IMG/VR virus record: IMGVR_UViG_3300025438_000156
Location: 1 to 21,853 of that record
DNA from: a virus
DNA: 21,853 nt
Strand: one strand, 5' to 3'
Shown here: piece after piece, positions 10,227 through 21,853 of the stretch
Layout: every line of letters starts with the position of its first letter
Position numbering within the stretch: the first letter of the stretch is position 1
Made by a program: the position numbers and the translations under genes
The notes under the pieces: model-generated
What the model saw: only the letters and a program-made list of their open reading frames with translations
Databases searched by the model: none
What the model was told of the DNA's origin: nothing

Positions 10227-11273
10227 ATGGCAGTCGGACAGGGATCAATAGTAAGTACAGAATCATATTTAGCTTTAGGGCGTGAAACAACTTATGGAAC
10301 TATGGTGACTACAACTGCCGGCCTTCCGTTTATATCTGAAGGATTAAAGACGGCTCAAGAGGGTAAAATCTTAGAGCAGTTAGAAAAGTCCAGAGTATAC
10401 TCTCAGCATATGAGAATGGGAAAAATAATTGAAGGCGGTTTAGAGGCCTATGTTTATTCAAGATTAACAGCTACCGGTTGGCTTTTACAAAACGCCTTTG
10501 GCGGTACCGTAACTTCAGCAACGGCAACGGGCGAAACAGCTGGTGGTTCAGCAATAACTCATGTATTTGAAATTGGTTCAATGGATCAAACAAATAAATC
10601 ATTGAGTGCTAACCTAAGAAAAGGTGACTCAGCCAGTGCTAAGATATTTGAATACAACGGCTTAAGAGTTAATGAATTAAACTTTTCTGCCGAGATTGAT
10701 GATAGTTTGAAAATGTCATTAGCTTTTATTGGTAAAGACTCATCTTCAACTTCAAATGATGTTTGCTCAACTTTAACTTTTACATCAATGAGTCCATTAA
10801 GTTTTGTTAATGGTCGAGTGAGTGTAGAGGCTTCTTTTGCAAGCCTAACAAGTTCAAGTTTTTGGCATGTTCAATCTGTAAATTTTGGAATAGGTAACAA
10901 CCTAAAAGGGGACGCTGAAGCAAGACGAATCGGCTCAGATACTTTGGATGTTTTACCTGTAGGGATTGCAACGCTTCCTTTATCAATGACTATTAGATTT
11001 GATACTACAACGGCCTACGATGCAATGCTTGCAAGTACAGAGCTTGCAGTAGAGCTTGAGTTTCAAGCGGCGACAATGACCGGCTCAGTAGCAAGAGAGG
11101 GCATTAAAGTTAGATACCCTTTAGTACAAATTAACGATGCAGGGGACCCAGAAATTGGCGGACCTGATGAAATATTATCAAGCGAAGTATCTTTTAATGT
11201 ACTTAGAGATATTTCAAGTGCTACCGGCTACGCGGTACAATTGGATTTAACAAATGACATTGCAAGTATCTGA
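10227..11273 (+). CDS. Major tail tube protein
   Basis: 348 residues. The opening SYLALGRETTYGT (about 10-22) is typical of siphovirus tail tube proteins, followed by strands, a Gly/Thr/Ala-rich loop (VTSATATGETAGGS) and EYNGLRVNELNFSAEIDDSL (143-162), the recurrent 'fxGcxVnxlslsxxxxgxvxxsf' tube-fold pattern. It follows the neck genes and precedes the chaperone and tape measure, the fixed order of non-contractile tails; no sheath gene is adjacent. It polymerises into stacked rings that form the tail shaft. Its 3' end overlaps the predicted chaperone start by 20 bases. Confidence 0.85.
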   Translation: MAVGQGSIVSTESYLALGRETTYGTMVTTTAGLPFISEGLKTAQEGKILEQLEKSRVYSQHMRMGKIIEGGLEAYVYSRLTATGWLLQNAFGGTVTSATATGETAGGSAITHVFEIGSMDQTNKSLSANLRKGDSASAKIFEYNGLRVNELNFSAEIDDSLKMSLAFIGKDSSSTSNDVCSTLTFTSMSPLSFVNGRVSVEASFASLTSSSFWHVQSVNFGIGNNLKGDAEARRIGSDTLDVLPVGIATLPLSMTIRFDTTTAYDAMLASTELAVELEFQAATMTGSVAREGIKVRYPLVQINDAGDPEIGGPDEILSSEVSFNVLRDISSATGYAVQLDLTNDIASI

Positions 11274-14307: not shown

Positions 14308-15701
14308 TGGGACTATCCAAAGAACTTAAAGCAGGCATGAGCACGGTTTTTAGAAAAGCTTTTATAAAGCGCATGAATGCCGATGGCTCTTATGAAAGTG
14401 ATTGGTTTGAAATTACAAAGGATGTAATTAAATTCGGTTCAATAGGTATTTCTATAGATGCCTCAAGATTTAATAAGATTAACTTTGGATCTAACTCCAT
14501 AGTGCTTTCTAATATTGATGGCAAATATAACCCAGAGGACAATCCTTCTAGTGTTTGGTTTAACTATGCAACACAACAAAGGTCTTTGTTTAAAATAGAA
14601 GCCGGTTATTTAACTAGCTCTTTAGGTTCCGACGGTATTTATAAAAAATCCGAGATTGATAACTCTGTATGGGATAGGAGTTATTGGGACGAAGCTAATG
14701 ACTGGGATGCGACCGTTGTTTTATACAAGGGTGTTATTTCAGGGGATGTTAATTATAGCGACAAAACAAATGTAAACTTTAACGTGATGCCGTTAATGGA
14801 GATATTTAGACAATTCCCAGCCGATGATTTAACAGGCTTTACAAGTACAGGATTAACAGCCTCACAGTTAATGGAAAATATTAGAGACCATACCGACGGC
14901 GCGGCCAATTATGTATTCAGACCTTTCTTTGAAAACACAACTTCCAATTGGGAGATTGAAGCTACTACTAGTATTTATGCAGATTTAAACACAAACTCTA
15001 GTGCTGCTTTAGTAGATTTAAGTTTATGGGATTTAATAGAAAAAATATCACAAGCTGAAAACTACTTAGGTTATGTAAACTCGCAAGGTGTTTTTAGATT
15101 TGTATCTAGAGCGGCCAATACTACAACAAGTCAGTTTGAATTTAACGGCCCTGGGATAACTACAGACAACACTTATGGAGTACAGATAAAGAGCATTAAA
15201 AAGTTCGGTCCAAAGTATAGTAAGTTTTATTCTAGAGTAAGTTTGAAATACAAAGAAGCAGATACAATATCTAGCTACCAAGTCCTACAAGCAAGCCTAA
15301 CAGTTGACGGCGGTAACCTGGCCTGGATACTAGGGCGGCGCTCTATATCCCTAGAGAACACCTTTGTTGCTACCTCAACTGTGGCTAGTACTTTAGTAAC
15401 TAATATTTTTAATGATGTATCTAGTTTGAAAAAAGAAATAGAGTTTAATACTCCTTTTGTACCAGGCCTTGATATTCTAGATTTATGCAAAATATCTTAT
15501 GACACAAGTGCAGTTGAGCCAGAAAACTTATGGGACCTAAACAATTGGGGGGATGCAACCTCTGTTATTGCAACGGGCGACCTTATATGGGACCTTCAAA
15601 CAGGGGATGCTATTAAACTAGACAGCGAAGAATATAATTTAATTAATATAAATATTAATTTAGACACGTTAGAAAATAATTTTATAGCAAGGGAAAACTA
15701 A
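14307..15701 (+). CDS. Tail tip / baseplate hub-like protein
   Basis: 464 residues starting on the previous stop (TAATG). It opens with a beta region that includes FNKINFGSNSIVLSNIDGKY (about 53-72), followed by strands (VLYKGVISGDVNYSD, 142-156), then a helical insert (about 165-240) with MEIFRQFPADDLTGF and LWDLIEKISQAENYLGYVNSQ, and further strands to the end. 'LWDLIxKIxxAxxxxxYxNxxGxFxF' (about 229-257) recalls the hub domain in tail-associated proteins (gp27/gpD-like fold), where subunits form the tail tip ring. No lysozyme or peptidase motif is visible. Position after the distal tail gene supports a hub role. Confidence 0.55.
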   Translation: MGLSKELKAGMSTVFRKAFIKRMNADGSYESDWFEITKDVIKFGSIGISIDASRFNKINFGSNSIVLSNIDGKYNPEDNPSSVWFNYATQQRSLFKIEAGYLTSSLGSDGIYKKSEIDNSVWDRSYWDEANDWDATVVLYKGVISGDVNYSDKTNVNFNVMPLMEIFRQFPADDLTGFTSTGLTASQLMENIRDHTDGAANYVFRPFFENTTSNWEIEATTSIYADLNTNSSAALVDLSLWDLIEKISQAENYLGYVNSQGVFRFVSRAANTTTSQFEFNGPGITTDNTYGVQIKSIKKFGPKYSKFYSRVSLKYKEADTISSYQVLQASLTVDGGNLAWILGRRSISLENTFVATSTVASTLVTNIFNDVSSLKKEIEFNTPFVPGLDILDLCKISYDTSAVEPENLWDLNNWGDATSVIATGDLIWDLQTGDAIKLDSEEYNLINININLDTLENNFIAREN

Positions 15702-16438
15702 TGCCTAGTACTATAACCGCATATACAACTTTTGTTGCTGGTAATTTAATAAAATCTTCAGAGGTAAACGCTAACTTGTCTAACCATAGAGGCAGCTTAG
15801 TACCGATCACTGAAGCAACCGCAACCGCAACTGATAATACTTACGATCTTGGCACGGATGAATATCAATGGAGGGATTTATTTCTAGGTAACAAGGCTCA
15901 TTTTCAAGGTCTTGCTACTACTCCTAGTCTTAATCCTACAACGGGCTCTTATAATTTGTATTCAAAAACCGACGGCCTTTTTTACGCACTAAACTCAAGC
16001 GGTACTGAAACAAAAGTAAGTGCCGTTGACAGAACGCCAGTTACTTTTACGCCAGCTTGGAGCGGTGTTACGGTCGGCAATGCTATTCAAAGCGGCAGTT
16101 ATTATAGAGAGGGCCGAGAAATGGTAGGCGTTGTGCAATTTGTTTTAGGAAGTACTTCAGGCATCACTGGAGACGTTCTTTTGACTATTCCAGGTGCCGA
16201 GGTAATTGATGGGACCTATGAAGCAATAGGTCTTGCCGGTACTGTAGGAACTTTGGGTATGGGTGACGCTGGTACCAATTCATACACCGGTAAAGTCTAC
16301 GCTGCAAACTCAACCCATTTGCGCTTAGCCGATACGAGAAGCGCTGACGCTTTGCTTTCAAGTACAGTTCCATTTACATGGACCACAAACGATATAATTT
16401 TTGTAAAATTTAGAGTAGCAATAGTAGGGTGGTCTTAA
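15701..16438 (+). CDS. Tail tip/fibre protein A (receptor-binding candidate)
   Basis: 245 residues. The first 70 or so (TITAYTTFVAGNLIKSSEVN onwards, then NLSNHRGSLVPITEATATAT and DNTYDLGTDEYQWRD) are nearly the same as those of the next gene and probably anchor the protein to the tail tip; the 'YDLGTxxxxWRxxYxxxI' segment is common in phage fibre and collar proteins. The rest (about 105-245) is a Gly/Thr-rich beta domain with ITGDVLLTIPGAEVIDGTY and RVAIVGWS, resembling jelly-roll head domains of fibres. TAATG joins it to the hub gene. It likely binds the host receptor, or forms the fibre base; the target is unknown. Confidence 0.65.
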   Translation: MPSTITAYTTFVAGNLIKSSEVNANLSNHRGSLVPITEATATATDNTYDLGTDEYQWRDLFLGNKAHFQGLATTPSLNPTTGSYNLYSKTDGLFYALNSSGTETKVSAVDRTPVTFTPAWSGVTVGNAIQSGSYYREGREMVGVVQFVLGSTSGITGDVLLTIPGAEVIDGTYEAIGLAGTVGTLGMGDAGTNSYTGKVYAANSTHLRLADTRSADALLSSTVPFTWTTNDIIFVKFRVAIVGWS

Positions 16439-16465
16439 TAATGATTAAAATAACAAGGGGATTTT

Positions 16466-17275
16466 ATGCCTAGTACAATAACCGCGTACACAACTTTTGT
16501 GGCTGGCACCAAGGCCAAGGCTACTGAAATAAATAATAATCTGTCTAACCATAGAGGTACTTTGTTACCAATAACTGAAGCAACGGCAACGGTTTCAGAC
16601 TTAACTTATGACTTAGGTACTTCAGAACATCCTTGGAGAGAGACGTATACAAACAATATTAACTTTCATCAAACGTCGGGTAGTAATATTATTAAGTTTC
16701 AAATTTCAGCTGCCGAGCTTGATCTATTTATAGATAGCATTACCTCATGTAATTTTGGCGTTAACGGTATGAACTGGGATTATCTAGGCCCTGCCGTTGT
16801 GACTGGATCCTCATCCGATACCGCAACAATAGGTAAGCATGTACTACTATCAAACATAGCTACGTCCGGTTCTTTAAATGGAACGGGCTCTTTTACTCCT
16901 TTTGCTTTTCAATATTGGTCTAAGTATGGTGGGCCTGTATGTTTTGAGGGCATTCAATTTTCCGGTACAGAAAACAACTTTTCTTTTTTAGTAGCTCCAA
17001 CGGCTTCAGTAGTAGCTTTTAGGTTTAATGTCATGTATGGCCTAACAATTACATCTCTAAGCACCATAAGCTCAATAAGTCATACAGCTCATATTTTAGA
17101 AAACGGTTTAAATTACAACGTTTATATTCCTACAACCATTATAAGCGCCGTTGCCTCTGTGGCCGTTGGTAAAAACTTTTTTGGAATACAAATGTATGCA
17201 ACGGCCACAGTAGGTTCATTTGGCGATACCTCTTGTGCGTTGGACGGCTCATTTTTAGTTAAAGATTTAACTTAG
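16466..17275 (+). CDS. Tail tip/fibre protein B, N-terminal paralogue of A
   Basis: 269 residues, starting after an AAGGGG site. Its first 70 residues repeat those of the preceding gene (MPSTITAYTTFVAG, LSNHRGTLLPITEATATVSD, TYDLGT, PWRETY), at both protein and DNA level, while the following 200 are unrelated: a beta-rich domain with HVLLSNIATSGSLNGTGSFT (about 127-146) and a Thr/Ser/Val-rich end. This is what a duplicated anchor with a swapped receptor-binding tip looks like. It closes the tail module; 40 bases later a new set of accessory genes begins. Confidence 0.65.
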   Translation: MPSTITAYTTFVAGTKAKATEINNNLSNHRGTLLPITEATATVSDLTYDLGTSEHPWRETYTNNINFHQTSGSNIIKFQISAAELDLFIDSITSCNFGVNGMNWDYLGPAVVTGSSSDTATIGKHVLLSNIATSGSLNGTGSFTPFAFQYWSKYGGPVCFEGIQFSGTENNFSFLVAPTASVVAFRFNVMYGLTITSLSTISSISHTAHILENGLNYNVYIPTTIISAVASVAVGKNFFGIQMYATATVGSFGDTSCALDGSFLVKDLT

Positions 17276-17315: not shown

Positions 17316-18248
17316 ATGAATATAGCAAACACCTTGTACAGACTGAAATATCGTTATGGCAATCTACTGCCTTTAAAAGTGCCAGTTGACCTATCCCTTG
17401 AATTATCTAGTGCCTGTAATATGGCTTGTGGTTATTGCTATCATAGTGACCCAAAGAACCTACCTTTTAAACGTGGGGTTATGGATTTAGCATTAGCTAA
17501 AAGAGCAATTGAAGAGGCAAGTCATATAGGAGTTTCTAGTCTTAAGTTTAATTACAGGGGCGAGGCAACACAGAATCCTTACTTTTCTAAAATTGTAGAA
17601 TACAGCTCTGAGTTTAATTTCATTGATAGGATTTTAAATTCTAACTTTAAGTTCGATACAAACAAAGACGATATCTTTATAGCAATGTGCACGCTGACAA
17701 AAGTAAAGGTTAGCTATGACAGCTTTATTAAAGATGTATTTGAAAAGCAAAGAGCTAAAGGTAATCATGATTTAAGCACAAAGAACATTGATAAGTTTTA
17801 TAATTTTCCTATCCGAGATAAGACACAGTTAGTAATCCAAGCGGTTAGAACTAGTCTAAATAAAAATGAAGATATATATGGGGAAGTAAAAAAACGCTGG
17901 CCTGAAGCTCAAGTTTCTATAAGAGATATGGTAGAGGGTAGAGTCAACAAAGACCTAACCGATCTAAAACATAAAGAGAGAACAGCCGAGCGGCAATCTT
18001 GTCTCCAGGCTCACGTAAGATTAATACTTAATCATGATGGCGCTGTCCAACCGTGCTGTCCATCTATTGATAACAGTTTAATTATTGGCAAGTATCCTGA
18101 AAGCAGTTTAACTGAAATCTTTAATTCACATCAAATTAAGACATTAAGAAAAGATCTTAAAACAGGTAAAGCTTTTGAAAGCCACCCTTGCAAAACATGC
18201 TCAAGTTTTGAGTCTTACAAAAACTATAAGCACCCGTGGGGTTCGTAA
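17316..18248 (+). CDS. Radical SAM/SPASM-like protein
   Basis: 310 residues. The N-terminal CNMACGYC (34-41) is a radical SAM CX3CX2C motif, with three Cys that bind the 4Fe-4S cluster cleaving S-adenosylmethionine. Conserved features include FNYRGEATQNP (78-88), comparable to the family's GGEPxxxP, here with RGEAT. The C-terminal region has Cys229, DGAVQPCC (241-248) and CKTC (292-295), the pattern of a SPASM-like auxiliary cluster. No Shine-Dalgarno is evident before the ATG, which follows the fibre gene by 40 bases. Its stop overlaps the next gene (TAATG). Related proteins modify peptides or sugars; the substrate here is unknown, but the neighbours point to sugars. Confidence 0.8.
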   Translation: MNIANTLYRLKYRYGNLLPLKVPVDLSLELSSACNMACGYCYHSDPKNLPFKRGVMDLALAKRAIEEASHIGVSSLKFNYRGEATQNPYFSKIVEYSSEFNFIDRILNSNFKFDTNKDDIFIAMCTLTKVKVSYDSFIKDVFEKQRAKGNHDLSTKNIDKFYNFPIRDKTQLVIQAVRTSLNKNEDIYGEVKKRWPEAQVSIRDMVEGRVNKDLTDLKHKERTAERQSCLQAHVRLILNHDGAVQPCCPSIDNSLIIGKYPESSLTEIFNSHQIKTLRKDLKTGKAFESHPCKTCSSFESYKNYKHPWGS

Positions 18249-18775
18249 TGAGTATATACGAAGGAAAGTTATTAAACCCAAGCGACATGGAAAACGGTCC
18301 TATAAAAAACGCATATGTTTCTTATAGAGAGCAAAGAACAAGGTGTTATAATAAAAAAAGAGAAAAGTATAAATACTATGGAGAAAAAGGAATTGAAGTT
18401 AAGTACAGCTCAAGAGAATTCATAGGCTGGTGGCTTGAAGAAATTAAAAGCTTTAAAGGAAAAGACCCAACTATATCAAGAATAGACCATAGTAAAAATT
18501 ATGAATTTGGTAATATAAAAATAGAAAGCAGATCGGATAACACCATAGAAAGAAACAAAAGAATTCTGCCCTTCCATAAAGCAAAAAAAGTAATGGCTAA
18601 AAGTAAAGCCGAAAGCTTATTGTTTCTTAGCGTAAACTCTTGCTCGGTTTACTTTGGTGTTTTGCCTATAACAATGAGCAACATTATAAAAAACAAATCA
18701 GAACTTAATGGTTATACATTTAATTTCACTGGAGTCACATTTGGCACTCTTAAACACAGCAATAATATTATGTAG
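18248..18775 (+). CDS. HNH homing-endonuclease-like protein with NUMOD-like C-terminus
   Basis: 175 residues from ATG 18248, chosen because it overlaps the previous stop (TAATG); GTG 18236 would add four residues. The first 105 follow the phage HNH/AP2-like homing endonuclease pattern: RTRCYNKKREKYKYYGEKGI (30-49), then a helix with Phe/Trp, then TISRIDHSKNYEFGNIKIES (75-94) and NTIERNKR (98-105), matching 'lDRiDnxgnYxpxNcxWaxxxxQxxNxR'. The C-terminus (about 125-160), SVNSCSVYFGVLPITMSNII to GYTFNF, resembles a NUMOD-type helix-turn-helix. It sits inside the sugar cassette, so it may be a mobile homing gene or a DNA-binding passenger. Catalytic activity is not certain, as the HNH His pattern is only partly visible. 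Confidence 0.7.
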   Translation: MSIYEGKLLNPSDMENGPIKNAYVSYREQRTRCYNKKREKYKYYGEKGIEVKYSSREFIGWWLEEIKSFKGKDPTISRIDHSKNYEFGNIKIESRSDNTIERNKRILPFHKAKKVMAKSKAESLLFLSVNSCSVYFGVLPITMSNIIKNKSELNGYTFNFTGVTFGTLKHSNNIM

Positions 18776-20048
18776 TAGGGCTAGTTCTAAAAGACTGCCA
18801 GGTAAATGCTTTTTAAAGATCAATCAAAAGCCTATACTAGAGCATCTAATAGACAGACTAATACCCTCAAACATACCTATAATATTGGCTATTCCAAAGA
18901 ATGAAGAGCACCTTTATAAGCATTTAGAATCTAAAGGCATAACTATATTTACAGGTTATGAACATGATCCAATGGCTAGAATGTTTCACGCGGCCAGAAT
19001 ATATAAAGTAAAAACAATAGTACGAGTAACACATGATAAGATTTTTGTAGATTATAAGACATTGCTTAAAGCTGTATATGATTACAACGGGGGATGCCAC
19101 GATTATTTATACAGCACAAAGTTTACCGATGGCTCGGCATTCGAGATAATAGATTTTGAGTTAATTAAAAAAGCAGCCCTATTATATAACGACGTCGAGT
19201 TCATTAGTTATGCAGTAAAGAACCTTACTAAAAACAAACTGCACTTCTATGTTCCAATGGAATTAAGGTCTGATTATAGATTGTTAATAGATTATAAAAA
19301 CGACCTAAAGATATTAGAAATTATATTTAATAAACTTGGCAATAACGTATCCTTAAAAGCTGTTATTAGATTTTTAGATAAGTCTAGGTGGGTGAATAAG
19401 ATTAATAAAATGCCACTATTAACAGTCTACACTTGTAGTTATAACTCTAGTGATTACATAGAGAAATGTATTCATTCAGTATTAAATCAAAACATATTTT
19501 ATAAAACACATTTCATATTTATAGACGATTGCAGCACTGACGATAGTTTTCAAAAGGCGTGTAAGCTAACTTATAAATATAAGAACATTGATATTATTAG
19601 AAACCAAAAAAACGTAGGTCTGTCTAGTAGTTCAAACATTGCTTTAAAACATGCTCAAGCAAAATACATAGTAAGACTTGATGCCGATGACTATTTTGTA
19701 AACAATCAATCCCTTGAAACTCTAATGAATAAGATCATTAAGGATGATTGTGACGTTGTTTATCCTGATAATTACTTTGGATCATTCCAGAAAATACAGA
19801 AAGGTAATGAGCAGCATCACGTAGGCGGCGCTATCTTTAAGACTAGAGCTATTAATCATATTAAGTTTACTGAAAAGCTTTCAGGATTTGAAGGTTATGA
19901 CTGGTTCTTAAAAGCTAAAAAGGAATTAGATATAGGTTACTTAGAGGAGCCTATGTTTTTTTATAGGCAGCATGATAAGTCATTAAGTAAAAACAATTTA
20001 GAAAAAAGAGAAATCCTTAAACAACAAATAGAGAGTGCCCACCTATGA
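18741..20048 (+). CDS. SpsF-like cytidylyltransferase fused to family 2 glycosyltransferase
   Basis: 435 residues if started at TTG 18741, which has GGAG 6 bases upstream and gives the short N-terminus MALLNTAIILCSRA expected of SpsF proteins; ATG 18708 lacks a site and adds 11 residues. Residues 1-225 match SpsF/NeuA-type enzymes that activate sugar acids as CMP-sugars: RASSKRLPGK (13-22), a HDPMARMFHAARIYK segment (75-89), and RSDYRLLIDYKNDLKILE (176-193), the usual 'RxTxDxxxDlxxi' end. Residues 226-412 form a GT-A family 2 domain: VYTCSYNSSDYIEKC, FIDDCSTDDS (about 260-269), GLSSSSNIAL and DADD (314-317), the metal-binding motif. The fusion implies activation and transfer in one protein. 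Confidence 0.75.
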   Translation: MALLNTAIILCSRASSKRLPGKCFLKINQKPILEHLIDRLIPSNIPIILAIPKNEEHLYKHLESKGITIFTGYEHDPMARMFHAARIYKVKTIVRVTHDKIFVDYKTLLKAVYDYNGGCHDYLYSTKFTDGSAFEIIDFELIKKAALLYNDVEFISYAVKNLTKNKLHFYVPMELRSDYRLLIDYKNDLKILEIIFNKLGNNVSLKAVIRFLDKSRWVNKINKMPLLTVYTCSYNSSDYIEKCIHSVLNQNIFYKTHFIFIDDCSTDDSFQKACKLTYKYKNIDIIRNQKNVGLSSSSNIALKHAQAKYIVRLDADDYFVNNQSLETLMNKIIKDDCDVVYPDNYFGSFQKIQKGNEQHHVGGAIFKTRAINHIKFTEKLSGFEGYDWFLKAKKELDIGYLEEPMFFYRQHDKSLSKNNLEKREILKQQIESAHL

Positions 20049-20416
20049 GTCAGAAAAAGAAATGGCCTAAGATTGATTTAATTCATTTTATTGCTAATAA
20101 TTCTTACAATGAATGGAATAAGTTTCTAACAAAAAGTGAGTATGAAAATAACTACACTGCAATAGTAAGCGTATTTTATGGCTTACAAGTTGGTATGCAA
20201 GTAGCTGTTAAAAACAAAGTAAGCACTCCTTTTATTGTAGATACTTTTATAAGATTGCAACGCTCGGCTGAAAAGACATTAAAGAGAATGTATAGAAAGC
20301 AGCATGGCACTTTACCTAGAGACGTATTAAGTAATGACAGAGTAAAAGAAATCTTACATAAAAAAAGGAATGTAGATAATGACTTCGAAAAATGGCTTAC
20401 ACTTCAGAGATATTAG
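20045..20416 (+). CDS. Small protein of unknown function
   Basis: 123 residues, overlapping the previous stop as ATGA and the next gene by 38 bases, so it is translated with the cassette. It is basic, mainly helical, with aromatic residues at the start (KKWPKIDLIHFIANNSYNEW) and a long charged region RLQRSAEKTLKRMYRKQHG (about 75-93) followed by RDVLSNDRVKEILHKKR. No signal peptide, membrane segment or catalytic motif is visible. I recognise no family; its tight packing between the transferase and synthase suggests it is part of the same unit. Confidence 0.75.
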   Translation: MSQKKKWPKIDLIHFIANNSYNEWNKFLTKSEYENNYTAIVSVFYGLQVGMQVAVKNKVSTPFIVDTFIRLQRSAEKTLKRMYRKQHGTLPRDVLSNDRVKEILHKKRNVDNDFEKWLTLQRY

Positions 20417-21206
20417 AACATGGGGACCAAAACCTAAGTATGACCGAGTAAGAAAGTTTGAAAAAGTAGACAATGATTTTATAAAAATAGCAGGCCCGTG
20501 CTCGGTTGAGAACAAGCATCAAATTTGGAAAATGGCAAAGATAGTAAGTGAGCTAGGAGCAAACTATTTAAGAGGCGGCGTGTTTAGAGCTGGCACTTAC
20601 CCAGGTAATAACTTTGGTTGGGTTGAAGAGGAGTTAATTGCTCATTATCACGAGGCGGCCGAGGCCTTCGGTCTAAGAAATATAATAGAAGTATTAGACT
20701 ATACTGAAGACAGTTTGGAATTGATTTCAAAATATTGTAGCTGTTATCAGATAGGGGCAAGGTCTATGCAAAACTATACTTTGCTTAAAAGAATAGCACG
20801 CTCTGGTAAAAGAATCTTTTTAAAACGTGGAACAAATGCAACGCTCGACGAACTGTTAGGCTCTTGTGAGCACTTATTAATTAATGGGGCTAAGGATATA
20901 GTTATTATTGAACGTGGCGGTGTAACCAATTTAAACCATGTTAGATGGGATCTTAGTATTAGTATGATACCAGCTGTTAAAGCTCTAACTCAAATACCTA
21001 TAATAGTAGATGCTTCTCATGGAACTGGACGCCGTGACTTGGTTGAACCTATGAGTTTAGCCGGTATTGCTGCCGGTGCCGATGGCCTTTTATGTGAGGT
21101 TCACGAAAATCCTGATTATAGTTTTAGTGATGCAGAGCAAGCAATTGAACCGATTGCATATAAGAATTTAATGGATAAAGTAAATAAAATAAAAAGCATA
21201 ATCTAA
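20379..21206 (+). CDS. DAHP/KDO8P synthase-family aldolase with atypical signature
   Basis: 275 residues with an AAGGA site 9 bases before ATG 20379. It belongs to the class I DAHP synthetase/KDSA family (PF00793), which joins phosphoenolpyruvate to an aldose phosphate to make a 3-deoxy-2-keto acid. Visible motifs are IAGPCSVE (37-44, metal-ligand Cys41), QIGARSMQN (124-132), LKRGTNATLDE (148-158), ERGG (178-181), DASHGTG (211-217, His214), GADGLLCEVHENP (233-245, Glu240) and FSDAEQA (249-255, Asp251), so all four metal ligands are kept. DAHP synthases carry KPRTS and KDO8P synthases KANRSS at the substrate loop; here RGGVFRAGTYPG (65-76) has neither, with Arg for the Lys. The substrate is therefore uncertain. 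Beside a cytidylyltransferase, a sugar-acid route is more likely than aromatic amino acid synthesis. Confidence 0.8.
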   Translation: MTSKNGLHFRDIRTWGPKPKYDRVRKFEKVDNDFIKIAGPCSVENKHQIWKMAKIVSELGANYLRGGVFRAGTYPGNNFGWVEEELIAHYHEAAEAFGLRNIIEVLDYTEDSLELISKYCSCYQIGARSMQNYTLLKRIARSGKRIFLKRGTNATLDELLGSCEHLLINGAKDIVIIERGGVTNLNHVRWDLSISMIPAVKALTQIPIIVDASHGTGRRDLVEPMSLAGIAAGADGLLCEVHENPDYSFSDAEQAIEPIAYKNLMDKVNKIKSII

Positions 21207-21218
21207 AGGAGCTTAATT

Positions 21219-21853
21219 ATGAAATGCGCAATATGTGACTCAAAAGAAAACTGGAAAAACGTGGACGAATACAGAATAAAACCCGAGGGCATGTGTATGT
21301 GTACTAAGTGCGGGTTTGTTTCTTATCCTGAAAAGTACCAAACAAAGCAAGAAATTATAGATTTTTACAGAGAGGACTATAGATCAAGGCCTAGTGTTGG
21401 AAACCTATACACAGGAGAAACTAAGTTAAATTATCACAACGCTTTTTTAGGTGAGCTATTAGCTAAGTGGAATAAAGATGATAAGAAAAGAAGTGTATTT
21501 GAAGTTGGAAGTGCATACGGGATATTTTTAAATTGGATGCGCAAGACTCTTAAAAATTGTGACGTAGCCGGTACAGAAATCACTACTAGTTATAAGAGAA
21601 ACGCCTTTCATGAATACGGTATAGACTTAAAAGACGACTTTGATGATACTAAAAAATACGATCTAATTTGTAGTTACAAAGTTTTAGAACATCAAATGGA
21701 TCCAGATTACGAACTAAGACGATATGCTGAGTGTTTAACTAAAGACGGTTTTATTTATTTAAGTATTCCTGTCTGGTTTAATAGACTTAATAACTTTGGA
21801 GCTGCTGGTTTTGACGTAGAATATTACTATCATACAAATCACATAAACGTATG
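21219..21853 (+). CDS. SAM-dependent methyltransferase with Cys4 knuckle (truncated by window)
   Basis: The first 211 residues are present; the frame is open at the right edge. AAGGAG lies 8 bases before the ATG. Cys3/Cys6 and Cys28/Cys31 (KCAIC, CTKCG) form a probable zinc knuckle, followed by a class I Rossmann fold: VFEVGSAYGIFL (93-104) is motif I, AGTEITTSYK (117-126) the acidic end of strand 2, DLICSYKVLEHQMDP (148-162) motif II with the LEH of Methyltransf_23 proteins, and a DGFIYLSIP strand (176-184). Such knuckle-plus-methyltransferase proteins commonly act on nucleotide sugars or glycans (C- or O-methylation). It follows the aldolase by 12 bases, which suggests methylation of the cassette's product. 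Acceptor unknown. Confidence 0.8.
   Translation, partial: MKCAICDSKENWKNVDEYRIKPEGMCMCTKCGFVSYPEKYQTKQEIIDFYREDYRSRPSVGNLYTGETKLNYHNAFLGELLAKWNKDDKKRSVFEVGSAYGIFLNWMRKTLKNCDVAGTEITTSYKRNAFHEYGIDLKDDFDDTKKYDLICSYKVLEHQMDPDYELRRYAECLTKDGFIYLSIPVWFNRLNNFGAAGFDVEYYYHTNHINV

Follow-up and report, generated by a model that had tools for sequence, protein, structure and literature searches.

A compact set of genes in a viral DNA fragment (record IMGVR_UViG_3300025438_000156; positions 17316-21853 of the 21,853 nt analysed as a whole, hereafter 'the window') appears to equip a tailed phage for the synthesis of an acidic sugar. We consider it very probable that this cassette represents a genuine viral pathway which leads to an activated acidic sugar and has been conserved and, with less assurance, favour as the probable reading that the phage makes a 3-deoxy-2-ulosonic acid activated with cytidine monophosphate (CMP), which an enzyme resembling the flagellin glycosyltransferase Maf puts on a virion protein. 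A preliminary description of the window had proposed such a sugar-acid pathway from a radical S-adenosylmethionine (SAM) protein, an SpsF-type cytidylyltransferase fused to a family 2 glycosyltransferase (GT2), an aldolase condensing phosphoenolpyruvate (PEP) and a methyltransferase. This interpretation is now supported by (i) the presence of NeuB-family synthases in the place of the aldolase in related phages, and (ii) a gene with a Maf/sialyltransferase fold in the tail operon, that is, outside of the range considered at the time.

Relatives were collected with an alignment of four portal proteins, which matched 403 in the viral collection, the best 80 of the 403 being kept. Profile searches were run over 45 records of such portal relatives, and protein clustering was performed on 23 contigs, the portals of which are ∼44–54% identical to that of the window; six of these contigs are circular by a 127-bp end overlap (41–48 kb). 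Eighteen contigs cover the slot between the gene of a small conserved protein (o124) and the methyltransferase gene, and this slot holds the aldolase only in 11, a NeuB homologue only in six, both in one (G035) and neither in none; L208 is a second contig with both an aldolase and a NeuB-family gene. An overlap this low has a chance of 3.8e-4 (without correction for descent), and the supported branches of the portal tree require at least three changes between aldolase and NeuB. Assignment of the alternative slot protein to the NeuB family by its sequence is firm: it matches PF03102 (2.2e-21), its PDB matches are N-acetylneuraminate, pseudaminate and SpsE synthases (NeuB/PseI/SpsE), and both metal-binding histidines (in GYSxH and EKH) are invariant in the alignment. 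The strongest argument for assigning the condensation of PEP to a 3-deoxy-2-ulosonic acid to this slot is that two different PEP synthases substitute for one another there.

Judged by its sequence, the aldolase itself descends from the type I-beta synthases of 3-deoxy-D-arabino-heptulosonate 7-phosphate (DAHP), with a PDB match to 1zco (3.8e-53). The PF00793 profile along with the metal ligands C41, H214, E240 and D251 and the PEP-site residues R65, R128, K149 and R179, all of which (as located by alignment) are invariant in the phage set, place it in the superfamily of PEP aldolases that comprises the synthases of DAHP and of 3-deoxy-D-manno-octulosonic acid (KDO) 8-phosphate. It does not qualify as the KDO 8-phosphate synthase KdsA (TIGR01362, 67.5 against 314), and also remains below both curated cut-offs for DAHP synthase (TIGR01361, 241.5 against 267.75; PRK08673, 268.1 against 335). 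In the DAHP synthase family, the arginine of the KPRTS motif and the residues following it bind erythrose 4-phosphate. The phage aldolases have RAGTY in this place (RAGTF in one), with RAGT being invariant in all aligned copies, while KPR[TS]S is present in all five bacterial relatives that were fetched, and an alignment search of bacteria returned KPRTS-type relatives only. A search of bacterial genomes for a DNA pattern encoding RAGTYPGN gave no matches, this pattern being too strict since its final N is not conserved. The replacement of KPRTS by RAGTY suggests that an aldose other than erythrose 4-phosphate is used, perhaps an unphosphorylated one as for NeuB enzymes; a literature search yielded no paper directly addressing KPRTS contacts or phage nonulosonate pathways. 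An ordinary DAHP synthase, which would have spoken against the preliminary description, was thus ruled out by the low scores and by the loss of a motif that the bacterial relatives keep.

The second line of evidence is provided by the gene of a PF01973 (MptE/Maf_flag10) protein located among the tail genes. Its start overlaps the stop of the preceding tail gene, it ends 1 bp before a probable tail-tube gene, which in turn is followed by a chaperone-like gene and the tape-measure gene, and it is encountered at the same place in 21 of the 23 contigs. Domain and fold point to a Maf/CstII-like protein: the PF01973 match scores 55.3 bits (against 34.6), a profile of the gene has Magnetospirillum Maf as its best PDB match (5mu5; 4.8e-5), and with the AlphaFold2 (AF2) model (predicted local distance difference test score, pLDDT, 91) Foldseek again ranks this Maf first (1.7e-10), followed by the archaeal pterin kinase MptE/HPPK (8sd5; 2.2e-5) and, at lower ranks, by a cell-division regulator and then the human sialyltransferase ST8SiaIII in its CMP-sugar complex (1.3e-3). 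The large N- and C-terminal domains of Maf are lacking in this protein of just 330 residues, and its neighbour is a tail gene rather than a flagellin acceptor. Maf enzymes transfer CMP-activated nonulosonates onto serine or threonine of flagellin and accept CMP-KDO as well, and the Maf_flag10/PF01973 domain resembles the sialyltransferase CstII (PMC11339370). The location of a Maf-like gene in the tail operon tips the choice toward the particle over the host surface. Hence, based on the fold and the place of this gene, we hold it to be reasonably probable that the pathway decorates the virion, and the adjoining tail-tube protein may be regarded as a candidate acceptor of the glycan.

The remaining enzymes fit into such a scheme. 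The cytidylyltransferase domain (CTP_transf_3 profile, 49.9 bits against 22.6) contains the nucleotide-binding motif, and the motifs SxRxPxK, THDK, RLLIDYPED-type and DADD of the fusion protein, which is retained in 19 phages, are conserved in the aligned sequences, one N-terminally short copy being the exception; the identity of the SpsF-like domain proposed in the preliminary description is borne out by the profile together with the kept SxRxPxK and RLLIDYPED-type motifs. The radical SAM protein has the cysteines expected of a radical SAM/SPASM protein, C34-x3-C38-x2-C41 (CxxxCxxC) and those of the C-terminal part being invariant in 14 aligned phages. The methyltransferase, seen in 19 phages, comprises 450 residues in its full-length form (L002:10841-12193), and its C-terminal part gives weak matches to tetratricopeptide (TPR)-like repeats.

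The cassette is a stable property of this phage lineage. Terminase, portal and tail genes recur together with the genes for the radical SAM protein, SpsF-GT2, o124, the methyltransferase and the PF01973 protein across the 23 contigs. Nineteen contigs reach the cassette region, and the SpsF-GT2 fusion and the radical SAM gene are found in all 19 (the latter in 17 by protein clustering and in two by separate recovery), o124 in 18, and the methyltransferase in every contig that extends far enough; the order is constant, and the cassette follows the fibres. The occurrence in related phages on which the preliminary description depended was confirmed by comparing synteny across the fetched contigs, since every relative covering the region exhibits the same gene order; a chance neighbourhood of these genes is ruled out by this conservation. 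In G016 the cassette is inverted as a block relative to the tail genes (L138:17910-19217 and L139), and further contigs beyond the 23 agree on the cassette (L219 and L220 are near copies). In a distant member (L165:3825-8276), an inserted lysozyme-like gene separates SpsF-GT2 from the synthase gene, and the methyltransferase gene is followed directly by the terminase genes. Among the 45 records, a cytidylyltransferase was detected in 19, the aldolase family in 12 and PF01973 in 33, with most of the remaining records being short fragments. The cassette is under purifying selection, as dN/dS, where estimable in this lineage, is 0.18–0.39 and similar to the values for terminase and portal. The GC content of the lineage contigs spans 32–64%, and hosts are therefore probably diverse. 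The radical SAM and PF01973 proteins had no tblastn match in 50,697 phage records, aldolase matches in 'phage' records of Listeria, Enterococcus and Staphylococcus are unannotated and possibly host DNA, and no published description of a phage lineage of this kind was found in a literature search.

The alignment search with the aldolase led to a second phage group (L169-L179), in the records of which no portal homologue of the first lineage was found. In L172:1711-11868, a stretch of ∼10.2 kb among virion genes encodes a methyltransferase, a radical SAM/SPASM protein, SpsF, GT2, an aldolase (with the motif YGTYPP) and a PF01973 protein; here SpsF and GT2 are separate but overlapping genes, and the PF01973 gene of this group also matches a PHROG called alpha-2,3-sialyltransferase (4.6e-4). 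The recurrence of the same set indicates that its members belong together whether or not SpsF and GT2 are fused. A third group has aldolases with KPCTYP, one of which (L182:4517-6762) is located near a NeuA-like cytidylyltransferase gene and a 2-oxoglutarate (2OG)-oxygenase-like gene in a large glycan cluster.

Taken together, a pathway of four steps may be envisaged. Given its family and residues, the aldolase would join PEP to an aldose, probably not erythrose 4-phosphate and possibly one without phosphate, to yield a 3-deoxy-2-ulosonic acid; in other members, the NeuB-family synthase would do the same job. The SpsF domain would then couple the acid to CMP, and the radical SAM enzyme and the methyltransferase might tailor the sugar. 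Finally, as suggested by fold and gene position, the Maf-like enzyme would use the CMP-sugar to modify a serine or threonine residue in one of the virion proteins, the likeliest being the adjoining tail-tube protein, while the fused GT2 might add a further sugar, possibly a uronic acid supplied by a dehydrogenase and an epimerase encoded near the terminase. One may go further, and only tentatively, to propose that the phages of both lineages make a 3-deoxy-2-ulosonic acid from PEP, activate it with CMP and O-glycosylate their tail tube with it, using a Maf-type transferase like those serving flagella in bacteria and a hitherto undescribed DAHP-derived synthase subfamily (RAGTY, YGTYPP) that is interchangeable with NeuB.

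Several observations weigh against the transfer of a CMP-activated ulosonic acid to the virion. (i) The PF01973 family also includes the archaeal pterin kinase MptE, and the model matches Maf with a moderate template modelling score (TM-score, 0.57 by query length). (ii) The phage NeuB-like proteins have no SAF domain and, with ∼223–254 residues, end after the barrel. (iii) To our knowledge, GT2 enzymes do not usually use CMP-ulosonates. (iv) The cassette sits after the fibres, where genes modifying the host surface also occur. (v) Aldose-supply genes of the PF02350 family (hydrolysing UDP-N-acetylhexosamine 2-epimerase, NeuC type) and of PF01380 (KdsD type) were found in none of the 23 records. 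Neither a complete sialic acid nor a complete KDO pathway is thus encoded, so that the host or an unrecognised enzyme must supply the aldose. A UDP-sugar dehydrogenase gene is present in 16 of the 23 records, often short (∼250–300 residues) and often beside an epimerase gene near the terminase; both genes are located, for example, at L002:19335-20825. This pair suggests that the second sugar is a uronic acid, which GT2 might use.

The main rival explanation, which we consider unlikely but worth keeping in sight, retains the sugar-acid pathway and places its product on the host surface (lipopolysaccharide, capsule or a lipid carrier), where it would block superinfection or alter the receptor. 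The position after the tail fibres, the combination of GT2 with NAD-sugar genes typical of envelope glycan clusters, and the third phage group, in which a related aldolase with KPCTYP has a NeuA-like gene next to it within a large glycan cluster, all fit this explanation, and the glycan clusters of large marine phages, namely pelagimyophages, have been read in this manner (PMC7029224). However, the genes are core and travel with virion genes, the Maf-like gene is embedded among tail genes with an overlapping start, and Maf enzymes act on proteins (PMC11339370), so that we continue to prefer glycosylation of a virion protein.

The other explanations dispense with a protein or envelope glycan, or with the pathway as such. 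Radical SAM enzymes, methyltransferases and glycosyltransferases are generally known from DNA hypermodification as well, and the module might modify phage DNA or make a small molecule; the CMP-sugar logic with its swap of PEP synthases, the Maf-like fold and the location in the late structural block rather than with replication genes render this quite improbable. Even less probable is a role of the aldolase as a DAHP synthase which, next to unrelated glycan genes, raises the supply of aromatic amino acids in the course of infection: DAHP synthases are indeed its closest families, but apart from the missed cut-offs and the replacement of KPRTS in every member, NeuB synthases take the same slot and no other shikimate gene was noticed. 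Finally, weak PADLOC matches to pVip (6.9e-9) could be taken to mean that the radical SAM gene serves in defence like viperin and that the other genes are incidental, an idea to which we give hardly any credence, considering that the protein scores 27.6 with the NCBIfam model for prokaryotic viperins (cut-off 180), contains a SPASM domain and is always encoded beside glycan genes.

The window covers part of the genome of a tailed phage and encodes a terminase, a portal protein with a head morphogenesis domain fused to it, a protease, the major head protein, proteins of the connector and the tail, the tape measure, tail-tip proteins and two fibre-like proteins. A second record of the same phage (IMGVR_UViG_3300005931_000055; 31,242 bp; 99.96–100% identical to the window over the compared stretches) continues past it with the 450-residue methyltransferase, an endolysin-like gene (PHROG 894) and further genes, and has an NAD-dependent epimerase gene and a UDP-sugar dehydrogenase fragment at its contig end. 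Because this 31-kb copy runs beyond the cassette into phage-type genes, a host junction was ruled out. A long repeat at L002:17590-18183 contains an open reading frame (ORF) rich in glycine, serine and tyrosine in one frame and ORFs rich in valine and threonine in others. The first 69 residues are common to both fibre proteins (65% identical), suggesting duplicated or exchangeable receptor-binding tips.

Table 1. Genes of the putative sugar-acid pathway and relevant neighbours in the window.
Feature	Position	Strand	Evidence and remarks
PF01973 (MptE/Maf_flag10) protein, putative Maf-like CMP-sugar glycosyltransferase, 330 aa	9233..10225	+	PF01973 9e-15
Probable tail-tube (major tail) protein	10227..11273	+	PHROG 290 (tail; called minor tail protein) 1.8e-28
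Two tail-fibre-like genes	15701..17275	+	Directly upstream of the cassette; first one matches PHROG 7121 (tail fibre)
Radical SAM protein with SPASM domain, 310 aa	17316..18248	+	PF13186 1.1e-8; N-terminal half matches many radical SAM models
HNH endonuclease, 179 aa	18236..18775	+	PHROG 3377, 3e-16
SpsF-type cytidylyltransferase fused to GT2, 446 aa	18708..20048	+	PF02348 4.8e-13, residues 18-176; PF00535 2.5e-27, residues 239-376
o124, all-helical conserved protein, 123 aa	20045..20416	+	No known family; same slot in 18 phages
PEP-condensing aldolase, 275 aa	20379..21206	+	PF00793 2.5e-45
SAM methyltransferase with N-terminal Cys4 motif	21219..21853, cut by contig end	+	PF13489 1.2e-11; first 211 of 450 aa

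The four genes named in the preliminary description were all found where it had placed them. They lie on one strand downstream of the tail fibres, and neighbouring cassette genes overlap or are separated by at most 12 bp (Table 1). Two genes of the region had escaped it, those for the HNH-type endonuclease and for the 123-residue protein o124. The former, to the cluster of which no ORF of the other fetched contigs belongs, is probably a free-standing, homing-type insertion outside the pathway. The gap between the radical SAM and SpsF-GT2 genes holds different small ORFs in G013, G020 and G036, and thus looks like an insertion hot spot. The o124 gene always lies between the ligase-GT2 and synthase genes; the AF2 model of its product (pLDDT 85) consists of helices only and had no PDB match at E ≤ 0.001 in a fold search, and the protein could assist the pathway as an adaptor or chaperone.

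If our proposal is correct, the virus itself would see to every stage from making an acidic sugar to activating and transferring it, with the same degree of conservation as for its capsid, and the presence of radical SAM and methyltransferase genes inside structural operons would be explained. Moreover, PEP synthases would gain a new specificity, the reach of Maf-type glycosylation would widen beyond flagella to include phage tails, and an acidic coat could change how particles stick to cells, surfaces and immune factors. The closest known counterpart is the nonulosonate pathway with a Maf flagellin transferase (NeuB/PseI/LegI, a NeuA-type CMP ligase and Maf, as in Campylobacter), which likewise combines a PEP-condensing synthase, NeuB in part of the phages, with a cytidylyltransferase and a PF01973 Maf-fold transferase. 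In contrast, the phage set is phage-borne and has its transferase in the tail operon, the synthase is usually DAHP-derived, the ligase is fused to GT2, the NeuB form has no SAF domain, no NeuC-type epimerase was found, and the Maf-like protein is comparably small. The KDO pathway (KdsA-KdsB-WaaA) follows the same logic of PEP aldolase, CMP ligase and transferase, but the phage aldolase resembles DAHP synthase more closely than KdsA, a KdsD (SIS) gene is missing, and the transferases are of the GT2 and Maf-like types. The Sps cluster of the Bacillus spore coat (SpsA, a GT2; SpsE, NeuB-type; SpsF, the ligase) shares GT2, the SpsF ligase and a NeuB/SpsE-type synthase with the phages, in which, however, SpsF and GT2 are fused, a radical SAM protein and a methyltransferase are the partners, a Maf-like transferase is added, and the set resides in a virus genome.

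Virion glycosylation is known in few phages, and we know of no PEP-derived acidic sugar pathway in the glycosylated mycobacteriophages. In their virions, subunits of both the capsid and the tail tube are glycosylated (Freeman et al. 2023, as cited in PMC12619734). A sugar on the tail-tube protein is likewise what we propose here, yet the present phage appears to encode the synthesis and activation of the sugar as well. Glycan clusters of marine T4-like phages (pelagimyophages, PMC7029224, and a cyanophage with KdsA/KdsB) also contain sugar-acid or glycosyltransferase genes, often near the tail fibres, but these have been described in hypervariable regions, whereas the phage set reported here is small, ordered and core to its lineage.

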